This document shows positions 14,106 to 31,365 of a stretch of DNA of 35,290 nt, piece after piece. Location: contig JAUZPY010000009.1 of assembly GCA_030705805.1 (NCBI GenBank), positions 1 to 35,290 on the forward strand, given 5' to 3'. The notes beneath the pieces are model-generated. The model was not told where the DNA came from, ran no database searches, and worked only from the letters and a program-made list of their open reading frames with translations. Numbering within the stretch: position 1 is the stretch's first letter; every line of letters begins with the position of its first letter. The position numbers and the translations under genes are program-made. Source of the DNA: Bacillota bacterium (GTDB lineage Bacteria > Bacillota > Clostridia > CAKSNL01 > HGM11501).

Positions 14106-15599
14106 TTAATTTAAATTGTCGTGAACAGCCCAGATAATTGTACCATCTTTATTTTGTGATAATTCCCAAAATGCTGCGCCGGCAAGATTGTTTTGCGTTA
14201 TATACTTTGCCTTTTCAGTTACTGATTGAACGTCGTCATATGATATAAATGTAGAGCCGTTAAATAACCACGGCACATCTGCAACCGAATGATAATGTCT
14301 TGTATAGCTTGTGTTATTTAAGTATGTTGATACTATCTTATCATACGTAATGGAGCTGCCGTTTGTAAATGCTTTATATAAGCCGTCAGTGCTGTTAGTA
14401 ATTCCACTATAAATATAGCCGTACAAAGGAATGCCAACGACAATTTTAGATGCCGGGAAGCCTTTAGAAATCCAATCTTGTATTGATGAGTCTGTACTGC
14501 ATTTATACTGCGGAGAGGATTCTGTCGGGGTATATAGCGGAGCATTAAAATCTGTATAGCTATCCCATGGTCCATGTATGTCATATGTCATAACATTTGC
14601 ATAATCCAAATAGTTATGTATTAAATCAATCTCTGTATTTTCAGTGTAAAAGCTTCCTGCACCACCTGCTATTGTTAACAAATATTTTTTGTTGTCAATA
14701 TTACCTTGAGCATCAAGCTTTTGCCTTATTGCCTTAAGTAAAAGCGTGAAATTCGTCTTATCCGCCGGACGATTTACATTGGATGAAAGCCCGCCGCTTA
14801 CAGGATATTCCCAATCCAAGTCTGCACCGTCAAAGCCATATTGCTTTATAAAATTCACAACACTTACCGCAAATGCATCTCTGCTGCTGTCAGTTAAAGC
14901 GACATCTGAAAATTTACCTGACCACTCCCAGCCGCCGATTGATATTAATGTTTTAATATTAGGATATTGTTTTTTAAGCTCACTCAGCTTAGAAAAATTC
15001 GTAATATCAACTGCCGGATCACCTAAGGCAATTTTTAAATCTGTTCCGATATTGGCAAATGCATAATTAATATGCGTAAGGTTAGCTGCGGGAATATTAA
15101 GAGGGGTGTATCCATTATATGCTCCCCAACTTGCATAATACCCTACTGCTATTTTTGTTGACTGAACAGGATCTGGTGGCTGAACAGGATCTGGTGGCTG
15201 AACAGGATCTGGTGGCTGAATAGGAGCCAATGTTACTACATTCAGTGCGGTACTGGAAAGAGATAAATTACCGCTGTAATCCTTTGCTTTTACGGTAATG
15301 GAATAGCTTGTGGAAGCTGTAAGACCTGTAAGAGTGTAAGTAGTAGAATAGGCAGTTGCAACATATGTAGAATTTTTATAAACCTGATAGGATGCTACGC
15401 CCTTGTTATCGTATGAGGGGGACCATGATAACGATATTGAATTCTGAGTAATACCCGTTGCAGATAAACTGCTCGGTGCTGTAGGAGCTTGAGTGTCAAC
15501 CCGCTTTTTAGCACTGGCTATGATGCCAAACTGAGGCAAAAAAGATGCAGAAATAAAGAAAAACAAGCTAAGTATGGCTATTCTTTTAACTTTGTTCAT
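14106..15599 (-). CDS. Secreted GH18 chitinase with fibronectin type III domain
   Basis: A 497-residue exported enzyme. ATG at 15599 has AAGGAAGG at good spacing; the in-frame GTG at 15608 overlaps that site. It has a signal peptide (about 1-29), then a fibronectin type III domain (about 37-123; APTAPSSLSATG, SISLSWSPSYDNKGVASYQVY, TSYSITVKAKDYSGN). Three PPDPVQ repeats form the linker. The glycoside hydrolase family 18 barrel is about 150-495. The catalytic motif is DGADLDWE with acid/base E264, and SIGGWEWS and MTYDIHGPWD are also typical. GH18 chitinases cleave chitin to chitobiose by substrate-assisted catalysis. No carbohydrate-binding module or dockerin is present. The enzyme would supply GlcNAc to the nag operon at 28.5 kb. 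Confidence 0.93.
   Translation of the reverse strand: MNKVKRIAILSLFFFISASFLPQFGIIASAKKRVDTQAPTAPSSLSATGITQNSISLSWSPSYDNKGVASYQVYKNSTYVATAYSTTYTLTGLTASTSYSITVKAKDYSGNLSLSSTALNVVTLAPIQPPDPVQPPDPVQPPDPVQSTKIAVGYYASWGAYNGYTPLNIPAANLTHINYAFANIGTDLKIALGDPAVDITNFSKLSELKKQYPNIKTLISIGGWEWSGKFSDVALTDSSRDAFAVSVVNFIKQYGFDGADLDWEYPVSGGLSSNVNRPADKTNFTLLLKAIRQKLDAQGNIDNKKYLLTIAGGAGSFYTENTEIDLIHNYLDYANVMTYDIHGPWDSYTDFNAPLYTPTESSPQYKCSTDSSIQDWISKGFPASKIVVGIPLYGYIYSGITNSTDGLYKAFTNGSSITYDKIVSTYLNNTSYTRHYHSVADVPWLFNGSTFISYDDVQSVTEKAKYITQNNLAGAAFWELSQNKDGTIIWAVHDNLN
15162..15215 (-). repeat. 18-bp tandem repeat in the chitinase linker
   Basis: Three perfect copies of the 18-bp unit CTGAACAGGATCTGGTGG (plus-strand sense) and the start of a fourth encode the PPDPVQ linker. 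The copy number is likely variable between strains. Confidence 0.9.
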
Positions 15600-15629
15600 T
15601 GATAACACCTTCCTTTGTAGTATAAGCTC

Positions 15630-27553: not shown

Positions 27554-28432
27554 TTACTTATTATTAACGGCTGAATTCTTATAAATTTTACGGTATTCAG
27601 ATGGGGAGAGACCGTTTGCCTGTTTAAATATTTTGCTAAAGTAAGAGCTGTTTTCAAAACCGCAAATATTACATATTTCAGCTACGGGCATTGTGCTTTC
27701 AAGCAAAAGATTTTTTGCTTTTTCACACCTGATATCATTTAAAAAAGATATAACTGTGCTTCCGGTAATTTTTTTAAATTCTCTTATAAAATGATATTTA
27801 CTTAAGCCGACTTCAAAGGCAACCTGCTCAATTGTCAAGGGATTTGATAAGTTTGCTTTCATATATCCTATAGCCAAACGTATGCTTTGAAGAGTTTTTG
27901 ATTCCCTCTTTAAATCTCCGAATGAAGCATGGAAGCGGCAAAGGTATAATATTAAATTCAGCACGGCACACTTAATTCCACATTCGGAAAAGCGGTTATT
28001 TCCATTAAATTCGGAAACTATATTGTCAAATTTATTTAATGCTTCTATATCCGTTACAATATTATTGAATGTAATACTGGATATATCAATGTCGTTGGCT
28101 TCAAGAAAACTTATGTCGGGAATTAAGCAATAATATTCAATTTGAGTGTCAGATTCAACATAGTGAAGGTTGTATGAATTGATTACTCCGATACAGCCCT
28201 CCGTCAAATTATAAACATGTGTGTTGCACACCAGATACCCGCTTCCTTTTTTTATGTATAGAAGCTCAATATTTTCGTGCCAATTCTGGATGCAGCGATT
28301 CTTATAATACTTCTTTTGGATACTGCCTTGAGAGCCCGGAGCAGTGCAAGTACCTGACACAATGTCATAGTGGAAAATGAGCGGCCGCCGGTCGGGCTTT
28401 AAAACATGTGATTCATAAATAACATCTGACAT
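27554..28432 (-). CDS. AraC family regulator, probably of the nag operon
   Basis: A 292-residue protein. The start is ATG at 28432 (MSDVIYESH), which has GGAGG upstream. An upstream in-frame extension would translate the duplicated operator and is rejected. The N-terminal half is a cupin-like ligand-binding domain (about 45-130; IELLYIKKGSGYLVCN, GCIGVINSYNLHYVES). The C-terminal AraC domain (about 185-285) has two helix-turn-helix motifs (TIEQVAFEVGLSKYHFIREFK and VAEICNICGFENSSYFSKIFK) ending GLSPSEYRK. It is divergent from nagB and shares a promoter region with it. The ligand is probably GlcNAc or an amino-sugar phosphate (inference). Confidence 0.9.
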   Translation of the reverse strand: MSDVIYESHVLKPDRRPLIFHYDIVSGTCTAPGSQGSIQKKYYKNRCIQNWHENIELLYIKKGSGYLVCNTHVYNLTEGCIGVINSYNLHYVESDTQIEYYCLIPDISFLEANDIDISSITFNNIVTDIEALNKFDNIVSEFNGNNRFSECGIKCAVLNLILYLCRFHASFGDLKRESKTLQSIRLAIGYMKANLSNPLTIEQVAFEVGLSKYHFIREFKKITGSTVISFLNDIRCEKAKNLLLESTMPVAEICNICGFENSSYFSKIFKQANGLSPSEYRKIYKNSAVNNK

Positions 28433-28448
28433 ACACTTACCTCCGATT

Positions 28449-28489
28449 AAAACCGCAATATAATTGCTGAAAACCGCAATATAATTGCT
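28449..28489. promoter_or_regulatory. Duplicated 20-bp operator between araC-type gene and nagB
   Basis: Two identical 20-bp units (AAAACCGCAATATAATTGCT) at 28449-28468 and 28470-28489 are spaced 21 bp. Each contains the dyad GCAAT-ATA-ATTGC. The second ends where the nagB -35 begins, the classical position for an AraC-type activator. Both lie downstream of the predicted araC start point, fitting autorepression. Confidence 0.7.
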
Positions 28490-28517
28490 TGAATACAGGG
28501 ATATTATACAATATAAT
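28489..28517 (+). promoter_or_regulatory. nagB promoter
   Basis: -35 TTGAAT (28489-28494), a 17-nt spacer and -10 TATAAT (28512-28517). Confidence 0.75.
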
Positions 28518-28531
28518 AAAGAAAAAAACAA
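28503..28531 (-). promoter_or_regulatory. Promoter of the araC-type gene
   Basis: On the minus strand, -35 TTGTTT (28531-28526), a 17-nt spacer and -10 TATAAT (28508-28503). It overlaps the nagB promoter, so the two polymerases may compete. Confidence 0.55.
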
Positions 28532-28563: not shown

Positions 28564-29307
28564 ATGAAAACCATTTTATGTGACAGCTATGAGGAAATGT
28601 CTAAAGCAGGCGCATTGATAATTGCCGACCAGCTTAAGGCAAAGCCGGACAGCGTACTTGGTTTTGCTACAGGGTCAACTCCCGTAGGTATGTATACTGA
28701 GCTTGCAAAAATGAATAAAAATGGGGAAATGGACTTTTCTAAAGTGACAACCTTTAATTTGGATGAGTATTACCCAATAGACCCTAAAAATCAGCAAAGC
28801 TACCGATATTTTATGAATGAAAATTTATTTAATAAGATTAATATTGATATATCTAAGACTTTTGTCCCCGAAGGGTATAGTTCGGATTCTACAGCGGCTT
28901 GCAAAAAATACGAAAAAATGATTAAGGATGCCGGCGGAATTGACCTTCAGGTACTTGGTATAGGAGTCAACGGTCATATTGGTTTTAATGAGCCGGCTAA
29001 AAATTTAAAGGCCAGTACTCATGTTACGGATTTGACGGAAAGTACAATTGAAGCTAATTCCAGGTTTTTTGCAAGCAGAGAAGATGTTCCGAGGCAAGCT
29101 ATTACAATGGGTATAGGAACAATTCTTAAATCTAAAAAAATAATACTGCTTATAACCGGAGAAAATAAAAGCAAAGCTTTAAATGACCTCTTAGGTGATG
29201 ATATAATAACAGATAATCCCGCTACATTTCTTAAAGTACATAATGATGTGACTCTCATTTGTGATAAGGAGGCATATTATGGCAGAGATAATACTCAAGA
29301 ACGTTAA
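28564..29307 (+). CDS. nagB: Glucosamine-6-phosphate deaminase NagB
   Basis: A 247-residue cytoplasmic enzyme that converts GlcN-6-P to fructose-6-P and ammonia. Motifs: LGFATGSTPVGMYTEL, TFNLDEYYPI, QSYRYFMNENLF, LGIGVNGHIGFNEPA (catalytic His region) and the helix ending ALNDLLGD. The length is typical of the Firmicute type without the E. coli allosteric tail. It is first in nagB-nagA-kinase and overlaps nagA by 29 nt. AAAGGGGAT precedes the start. Confidence 0.95.
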   Translation: MKTILCDSYEEMSKAGALIIADQLKAKPDSVLGFATGSTPVGMYTELAKMNKNGEMDFSKVTTFNLDEYYPIDPKNQQSYRYFMNENLFNKINIDISKTFVPEGYSSDSTAACKKYEKMIKDAGGIDLQVLGIGVNGHIGFNEPAKNLKASTHVTDLTESTIEANSRFFASREDVPRQAITMGIGTILKSKKIILLITGENKSKALNDLLGDDIITDNPATFLKVHNDVTLICDKEAYYGRDNTQER

Positions 29308-30349
29308 AGTCAAAGGCGAAATTACAGACATCGAAATAGCTGATGGGAAAATACGAAAAATAGGAAAGAGCAGCTTACCCGGCAAAGATATGAAAGGTAT
29401 GAATGCCTATCCGGGGCTTATTGATATTCATACTCATGGATGCCTGGGCCATGAGACCGATGAACCGTCTTACCTGCAAAAGATGAGTACGTTTATGGCA
29501 TCTCACGGTGTGACTTCATGGTATCCCACATTAGCTACGTCTTCTTTTGAGACCATGAAGGAGTTAGATGACTATGATATTACGAAAAGGGTAGGGGCAA
29601 ATATTTTAGGATTTCATTTTGAAGGTCCGTACATTTCAATGAAATATAAGGGCGCACAAAATCCGGATTATATTAAAAACCCTGATTTAAATGAATTTAA
29701 AAAATTTAAAAATGTTAAAATCATAACCATTGCCCCGGAATTACCAAACAGCGCAGAATTTATAGAAAATTGCGGAGCGAAAGTGGTAATCGGTCACACA
29801 ACAGCTGATTTTGAGACTGCAAAAAAAGCAATTAATCTGGGTGCAAATTGTGTTACTCATATATTTAACGCTATGCCTCCCATGCACCACAGGGAGCCGT
29901 CGGTAGTAGGTGCTGCTTTCAATGAGCAGGCATTTGTTCAAGTAATTTGTGATGGGTTTCATATTCATTGGGCTGTTTTAAAAATGCTTTATAAACTTTT
30001 TGGCACAGAAAGAATGATTATAATAAGTGACTCCACCAGCGGCGCATATGCAAAAGACGGTGAGTATATGTCCTGCGGTCAGAAAATTTATGTTAAAGAC
30101 GGCAGATCATTGCTGCCTAACGGCACTATCGCAGGCAGTACAACCTGCCTTTTCGATGGGGTTAAAAACCTGATAAAGTATGGAATCTCCCAGGAAGATG
30201 CATTTAAAATGGCATCCGAGACTCCTGCATCTTACATGGACCTTAACAAGGGCAGAATAGAAGAAGGATATGATGCTGACTTAATTATAGTAGATGATAA
30301 ACTTAATATAAAACAGACAATTATAGATGGTGAGTATTGGGGTGCTTAA
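29279..30349 (+). CDS. nagA: N-acetylglucosamine-6-phosphate deacetylase NagA
   Basis: A 356-residue amidohydrolase that removes acetate from GlcNAc-6-P, feeding NagB. The start is ATG 29279 with AAGGAGG 6 nt upstream, inside the nagB 3' end. Metal and substrate motifs: DIHTHGCLGHETDE, FHFEGPYIS, GHTTADFETA, THIFNAMPPMHHREPS, VICDGFHIH, IISDSTSGAY (catalytic Asp) and a C-terminal DADLIIVDD. Confidence 0.95.
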   Translation: MAEIILKNVKVKGEITDIEIADGKIRKIGKSSLPGKDMKGMNAYPGLIDIHTHGCLGHETDEPSYLQKMSTFMASHGVTSWYPTLATSSFETMKELDDYDITKRVGANILGFHFEGPYISMKYKGAQNPDYIKNPDLNEFKKFKNVKIITIAPELPNSAEFIENCGAKVVIGHTTADFETAKKAINLGANCVTHIFNAMPPMHHREPSVVGAAFNEQAFVQVICDGFHIHWAVLKMLYKLFGTERMIIISDSTSGAYAKDGEYMSCGQKIYVKDGRSLLPNGTIAGSTTCLFDGVKNLIKYGISQEDAFKMASETPASYMDLNKGRIEEGYDADLIIVDDKLNIKQTIIDGEYWGA

Positions 30350-30352
30350 TAT

Positions 30353-31291
30353 ATGTATATAGGAATTGATCTTGGCGGCACAAAAATTGCAGCAGGTCTT
30401 GTAAATCAAAGAGGAAAATTAATTCTTAAGAAAAGTATTCCTACGAAAGCCGAGAGAGGGGCTTCTGCAATTATTTCAGATATGGCAGATCTTGCATTGA
30501 CAGTTACAAAGATGGGCGGCAAGACCATGGATGACATCAAGCATGTGGGTGTAGGAAGTCCGGGCCATGTTGATACAGAGACCGGAACCTTGGTAAGCGC
30601 ATCCAACCTTCCTTTTAAATCATTGCCTATGAGGGATATGCTTTGCAGCTTATTAAATAAGCCTGTTTTTATAGAAAATGACGCAAATTGTGCAGCGCTT
30701 GCCGAAAGCAAGGTGGGAGCAGCAAAAGGAACAAAACATTCGCTGACCGTAACATTAGGAACCGGAGTCGGCGGCGGCATTATTATTAATAAAAAGATAT
30801 ATGCAGGCTTTAATCATGCCGGTGGTGAATTTGGGCATATGGTTATTGCCATTGACGGTAAAAAATGCACCTGCGGTAAAAGCGGCTGCTTTGAAGCCTA
30901 TGCTTCTGCTTCCGGTCTTATAAACATATCAAAAGAAAAAGCGCTTCTTCATCCGGAATCACTCATGTGGCAGCTGCTTAAGGAAGATGGCAATTTTTCA
31001 GGTAAAACTGCATTTAATGCTGCTAAAAACGGAGATTTGGCAGGCATGGAAGCGGTAAATGAATACATAAATTACCTTGCACAGGGGATTATTAACCTGA
31101 TAGTAATTTTCCAGCCGGAAGTTATTGCAATCGGCGGAGGCGTCAGCAATGAGGGTGAGGGATTGTTTTTACCGTTAATAAGAAAAATAAATGAAATTTT
31201 AGGGCCTTCAAGTTTGCCAAAAACAAAAATAGTACAGGCAAAGCTTGGAAATGATGCAGGAATTATCGGCGCTTCCATGCTTGAAAAATAA
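30353..31291 (+). CDS. ROK family sugar kinase, probably N-acetylglucosamine kinase
   Basis: A 312-residue kinase. Phosphate-binding motifs are IGIDLGGTKIAAGLV and LGTGVGGGI, with the catalytic Asp in ENDANCAALAE. The ROK signature HAGGEFGHMVI...CTCGKSGCFEAYAS supplies the zinc-binding histidine and three cysteines. It starts 3 nt after nagA with a weak ribosome binding site. Position behind nagBA argues for GlcNAc as substrate, meaning uptake of free GlcNAc by a non-PTS route. Glucokinase activity cannot be excluded. Confidence 0.88.
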   Translation: MYIGIDLGGTKIAAGLVNQRGKLILKKSIPTKAERGASAIISDMADLALTVTKMGGKTMDDIKHVGVGSPGHVDTETGTLVSASNLPFKSLPMRDMLCSLLNKPVFIENDANCAALAESKVGAAKGTKHSLTVTLGTGVGGGIIINKKIYAGFNHAGGEFGHMVIAIDGKKCTCGKSGCFEAYASASGLINISKEKALLHPESLMWQLLKEDGNFSGKTAFNAAKNGDLAGMEAVNEYINYLAQGIINLIVIFQPEVIAIGGGVSNEGEGLFLPLIRKINEILGPSSLPKTKIVQAKLGNDAGIIGASMLEK

Positions 31292-31321: not shown

Positions 31322-31365
31322 AATGAAAGAAGGCACTATGAAATTTCATAGTGCCTTCTTTCATT
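31322..31365. terminator. 44-nt perfect palindrome, bidirectional terminator
   Basis: Arms 31322-31343 and 31344-31365 are fully complementary (22 bp, AATGAAAGAAGGCACTATGAAA) with no separate loop. It lies between convergent nag operon and alcohol dehydrogenase genes. Confidence 0.8.

Follow-up and report, generated by a model that had tools for sequence, protein, structure and literature searches.

A conserved 21-bp direct repeat between an AraC-type regulator gene and a nagBA-kinase operon of Clostridia as a putative amino-sugar switch

Introduction

In Escherichia coli, AraC bound at araI2 occupies positions -35 to -51 and overlaps the -35 box of araBAD (PMC11434276). Regulators of rhamnose utilization from the same family have been predicted to use 21-bp direct repeats in Bacillales, Bacteroides, and Enterococcus (PMC3870299), and AraC-family sites lying upstream of promoters in Caldicellulosiruptor have been interpreted as activator sites (PMC8579813). 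Two further systems act on amino sugars: E. coli ChbR, an AraC-family protein with a dual role in regulating an amino-sugar operon, and NagR/YvoA-DasR, a GntR repressor whose 14-bp sites are partly palindromic (both PMC12791066).

Here, we analyze a stretch of 35,290 nucleotides (the window) from a clostridial genome (G000), in which an AraC-type gene and a nagB-nagA-kinase operon diverge from a short intergenic region. The locus shares with E. coli araBAD (I1-I2) a divergent regulator gene and two direct half-sites, the proximal one overlapping the -35 box, but it would drive nagBA-kinase, and no distal loop operator was recognized in it. The rhamnose regulators respond to another sugar, and their motifs were described as unique for each group (PMC3870299). 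ChbR likewise represents AraC-family control of amino-sugar catabolism, but it acts together with NagC on diacetylchitobiose genes and not on the nag operon (PMC12791066). NagR/YvoA-DasR has the same target genes, nagA and nagB, and differs both in regulator family and in type of site. Our searches of open-licence papers turned up no description of clostridial nagBA being controlled by a regulator of the AraC type; the AraC-type wiring is classical, and its use for nag appears to be undescribed.

Results

The AraC-Type Regulator and the nag Operon

The regulator gene (27554-28432, reverse strand) codes for a protein of 292 aa, P0001, with an AraC_binding cupin domain and two helix-turn-helix (HTH) motifs, the recognition helix reading SKYHFIREFKK. 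The C-terminal double HTH is of the AraC type (HTH_AraC, 84.3 bits, cut-off 26.6; HTH_18, 80.3 bits), and the N-terminal cupin (AraC_binding, residues 41-157, 46.7 bits, cut-off 21.1) is a ligand-binding domain of the sugar-sensing subgroup. With both domains present, P0001 is, as judged from its sequence, a transcription regulator of the AraC/XylS family. It is not the arabinose regulator, scoring 83.3 bits against the AraC equivalog cut-off of 208. A GGAGG ribosome-binding site precedes the gene (28440-28444, reverse strand).

The operon on the forward strand comprises nagB, for glucosamine-6-phosphate deaminase (28564-29307; TIGR00502, 293 bits, cut-off 236.9), nagA, for N-acetylglucosamine-6-phosphate deacetylase, which overlaps the end of nagB (29279-30349; TIGR00221, 283.8 bits, cut-off 225.65), and a gene for a ROK-family sugar kinase (30353-31291; TIGR00744, the ROK glucokinase model, 267.6 bits, cut-off 260.35; Pfam ROK over residues 2-310 of 312). 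A long terminator-like hairpin is read at its end (31325-31363, forward strand). Curated models and domains thus upheld the calls of an AraC-type gene and a nagBA-kinase operon made earlier in the sequence-only reading, and by these matches the identities of NagB, NagA, the ROK kinase, and the AraC-type gene are secure. A domain search found no HTH domain in the ROK protein of the operon, which is therefore a kinase and not a NagC-type repressor; no HTH-bearing ROK protein is encoded with the nag genes.

A Tandem Repeat Overlapping the nag Promoter

The 131-bp gap between the regulator gene and the operon contains two head-to-tail copies of AAAACCGCAATATAATTGCT close upstream of the araC start codon. 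A repeat search gave these 20-mers as 100% identical with a period of 21, and no further copy with up to three mismatches was found in the rest of the window (chance expectation 0.00); by this measure the tandem is not a chance occurrence. The distal unit (half-site 1, 28449-28468, forward strand) has its core heptamer GCAATAT at 28455-28461 and a second box, TTGC, and is kept in loci L007 and L008. The promoter-proximal unit (half-site 2, 28470-28489, forward strand) has its core heptamer at 28476-28482, and the nag -35 box begins on its final base.

A promoter scan placed the nagB promoter, TTGAAT-17-TATAAT, at 28489-28517 on the forward strand (10/12 matches), with an inferred start near 28524, so that the proximal unit lies at about -54 to -35. 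On the reverse strand, a predicted araC promoter, TTGTTT-17-TATAAT (28503-28531; boxes, leftward, at 28531-28526 and 28508-28503), was read from the sequence, with an inferred start near 28496; its -35 is weak and it is absent from the list of the scanner. The two promoters overlap, and both repeats fall inside the predicted araC transcript, at about +7 to +47. Identical 20-bp repeats at 21-bp spacing, abutting the nagB -35 and inside the araC transcript between overlapping promoters, were what the sequence-only reading had described, and each of these elements was found, the abutment being a one-base overlap with TTGAAT. A class II activator site is marked by two direct half-sites spaced by about 21 bp, of which the proximal one overlaps or adjoins the -35 box, and at the level of sequence this locus has such an arrangement.

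The same geometry could serve an AraC protein that mainly represses both promoters when sugar is absent, acting as a repressor/activator in the manner of ChbR and not as a simple activator. The site does overlap the nag -35 and forms part of the predicted araC transcript, and ChbR sets a precedent as a dual regulator of an amino-sugar operon (PMC12791066). However, repression in the manner of AraC often uses a distant operator, and the window holds no second good tandem, its weak matches occurring at chance number; P0001 also falls far below the ChbR equivalog model (33.6 bits against a cut-off of 264). We regard predominant repression as unlikely, although it is the alternative that keeps most weight.

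Conservation at Orthologous Loci

The nearest relatives of P0001 (47-48% identical) come from a different genus within the same family and are encoded in G001 and G003; in these two genomes the AraC gene faces nagA-ROK and nagB is missing from that position. From the first repeat up to and including the -10, both intergenic regions give a gap-free alignment with that of the window. Lack of conservation next to orthologues had been named beforehand as refuting the proposal, and the proposal passed this check: in both genomes the 21-bp tandem period was kept together with the two overlapping promoters. The second unit and the nag -35, TTGATT in these genomes, keep the register seen in the window, with 19 bases from start to start; the -35 and -10 of the nag promoter align gap-free in both loci, and the columns of the leftward araC promoter read TTGCCT-17-TAAAAT. 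Within the units AAAA and GCAATAT are conserved, and in the distal unit also TTGC, while the flanks of the tandems have diverged between the genera.

Each unit of the window also contains a 13-base dyad, GCAATATAATTGC. A palindromic reading of the site (GCAAT-ATA-ATTGC) was considered and rejected: the proximal units in G001 and G003 have no dyad. Since the dyad is lost there and the 21-bp direct repeat is kept, the functional repeat is the direct one, as expected of what AraC monomers lying side by side would need.

Apart from the nag locus, both genomes carry a second P0001-like AraC gene (36-39% identical), and the same tandem separates it from a further AraC-type gene that it faces (about 5788-5816 of L050, G001:C64; 3140-3167 of L051, G003:C177). 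In G001 this pair adjoins genes for a PFL-like glycyl-radical enzyme and, probably, its activase.

The Tandem and the Recognition Helix Across AraC-Type Genes

Because a motif-based choice of loci was to be avoided, AraC-type genes were gathered according to the similarity of their proteins, and each scan took in 300 bp of upstream sequence together with 30 bp of the gene itself (89 regions). The score counted two GCAATAT heptamers facing the divergent gene, and TT at the place of the -35 added one point (threshold 13 out of 15); agreement at the -35 is thus partly built in, since this point forms part of the score. The tandem at 21 bp, with both heptamers near-perfect, was present in 19 of the 89 regions, against 0-2 for each of 17 other spacings (15-32), and dinucleotide shuffles reached the threshold at a rate of 0.0011. 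The site went with the recognition helix [SN]K[YF]x[FL]xxxFK, occurring in 13/23 regulators with this helix versus 6/66 others (P = 1e-5, calculated over 89 rows that share descent).

A composite over the sites showed GCAAKAT in both units and, in the distal one, TNNYA about one turn further along, which fits two HTH motifs per monomer. The repeat proposed from the window sequence stands, but in the alignments the conserved core, GCAAKAT plus TNNYA, is shorter than the 20-mer that had been taken as the recognized unit, and the site is not particular to nag (see below).

A class-wide count of AGCAATAT pairs, with a peak of 20/112 at 21 bp, was dropped in favor of the protein-first test: many pairs were coding and several were mutS starts. 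An apparent mutS start encodes AGCAATAT twice, 21 bp apart (L139, L143, and L144), giving false tandem matches, and this mutS part of the class-wide excess was excluded from the support. Among control pairs at other spacings, an AraC gene lay within the fetched 6 kb in 1/20 cases, and that pair was inside the AraC gene itself.

These data bear on a second alternative, in which the site belongs to a different regulator (GntR/NagR, ROK/NagC, or another AraC paralogue) and lies between araC and nagB by accident. Each window unit has a dyad, GCAAT-ATA-ATTGC, that a dimeric repressor could read, and G000 offers other candidates, with 34 AraC-type matches and one ROK protein extended at its N terminus. 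Against this stand the loss of the dyad at the orthologous proximal units and the fact that presence of the site tracks the type of recognition helix encoded by the neighboring AraC gene. Moreover, the helix SKYHFxREFK was absent from all 29 other AraC HTH loci of G000 that were aligned and compared, four weak matches lying outside the comparison. Finally, no UTRA-domain GntR protein was matched in G000 (94% complete), while 8/14 control genomes were positive; NagR-type control is therefore unlikely, in agreement with the earlier claim that control here departs from the NagR type. Overall, a foreign owner of the site appears improbable. The ROK protein just mentioned (372 aa; 1450-2568 of L304, G000:C117) has an N-terminal extension resembling an HTH and adjoins an alcohol-dehydrogenase-like gene; it could conceivably act as an additional regulator.

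A recent, functionless tandem duplication could account for the 20-bp identity through slippage or conversion, but it is hardly credible given that the same period and promoter register are kept in another genus despite diverged flanks and that the tandem recurs in many AraC neighborhoods.

Further Sites in the Genome and in Other Families

Pattern searches, the only approach used for the regulon scan of G000, found GCAATAT-N14-GCAATAT in exactly four places; when gaps of 2-32 bases were allowed there were six GCAATAT pairs, four of them exactly 21 bp apart. The three sites other than that of nag precede an operon of sugar-isomerase-like, Gfo-Idh-MocA, and isomerase genes (C67), a GH123 gene (C139), and a promoter on contig C30, and at 4/4 sites a TTG-type -35 lies five or six bases beyond the second heptamer. 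The type of site is thus not nag-specific, with the same tandem before at least three other promoters of this genome. To judge from the shared motif, P0001 may serve all four; because the heptamer is common to several operons, the local regulator is the likeliest reader of the nag site, not a proven one. At C30, another AraC-type gene about 440 bp away is a second candidate reader. The GH123 family includes beta-N-acetylgalactosaminidases, and a GH123 target would fit an amino-sugar regulon. In the window itself, a GH18 chitinase with a fibronectin III domain is encoded at 14106-15608. The search for the site near the chitinase, suggested by the sequence-only reading, was negative, and around this gene as in the rest of the window only weak matches were found.

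The C30 site stands before a promoter, TTGGAA-17-TATGCT, followed by a highly structured RNA of roughly 155 nt (site, promoter and RNA at 1724-1950 of L096, G000:C30). The RNA lies upstream of galT, has a fold of -76.7 kcal/mol (z -6.2), and ends in an intrinsic terminator (1921-1945); galT has a promoter-like sequence of its own. No Rfam family matched this RNA at the gathering threshold. It is a candidate AraC-controlled small RNA or leader.

In other clostridial families, a P0001-like regulator adjoins the same isomerase/Gfo operon (G138, G107, and G236), and in G012 about 4 kb separate one site of such a regulator from a nagB-ROK-nagA operon. The nagA neighborhoods of other families contain nagB-ROK-nagA operons, mostly with no tandem site nearby, and for this reason the link between AraC and nag looks lineage-restricted. 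Ahead of nagB-ROK-nagA, several clostridial families have a gene for an APH-fold kinase resembling N-acetylhexosamine kinase (L286, G012:C71, 5260-13168; L288-L296), and some also have one for a nucleotidyltransferase. This arrangement suggests a conserved amino-sugar 1-phosphate route.

Discussion

The repeat, its spacing, the promoter register, their conservation, and the pairing with a recognition helix are best read, by analogy with AraC bound at araI1-I2, as the work of an ordinary AraC-family activator. We consider it very probable that the repeats are paired half-sites of the divergent AraC-type protein, which would activate nagB-nagA-kinase on a sugar signal while the same occupancy dampened araC. 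P0001 is predicted to bind both units, the two DNA-binding domains of the dimer lying side by side on the same helix face (21 bp being two turns). Each half-site would be read by two HTH motifs, one on GCAAKAT and one on TNNYA about one turn further on, and the promoter-proximal domain would touch the nag -35. On binding of the sugar signal, probably an amino sugar or its phosphate, RNA polymerase would be recruited and nagB-nagA-kinase transcribed.

The two halves of the one-site switch first proposed fared differently. Activation of nag by P0001 is strongly indicated, the position being that of AraC class II sites. Occupancy of the repeats would also be expected to lower araC transcription, given that the promoters overlap and that the repeats follow closely on the inferred araC start; geometry, conserved in two genera, makes such autorepression plausible.

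A wider scenario, which we put forward tentatively and hold to be rather doubtful, is that in this lineage one AraC-type protein, with relatives beside a sugar-isomerase/Gfo-Idh-MocA operon in other clostridial families, came to lie adjacent to nagBA and at present controls, through a single type of site, a small regulon for amino sugars: nagBA-kinase, the isomerase/oxidoreductase operon, the GH123 gene, and the structured RNA upstream of galT.

For specialists the surprise would be moderate, since the principle of action is classical. Under the activator reading, AraC would join GntR and ROK as a third type of regulator on the core GlcNAc-6-P pathway. The locus offers a concrete regulator-site pair for the large set of uncharacterized clostridial AraC proteins, and the motif GCAAKAT-N14-GCAAWAT-N5,6-TTG lets the putative targets of such proteins be listed.
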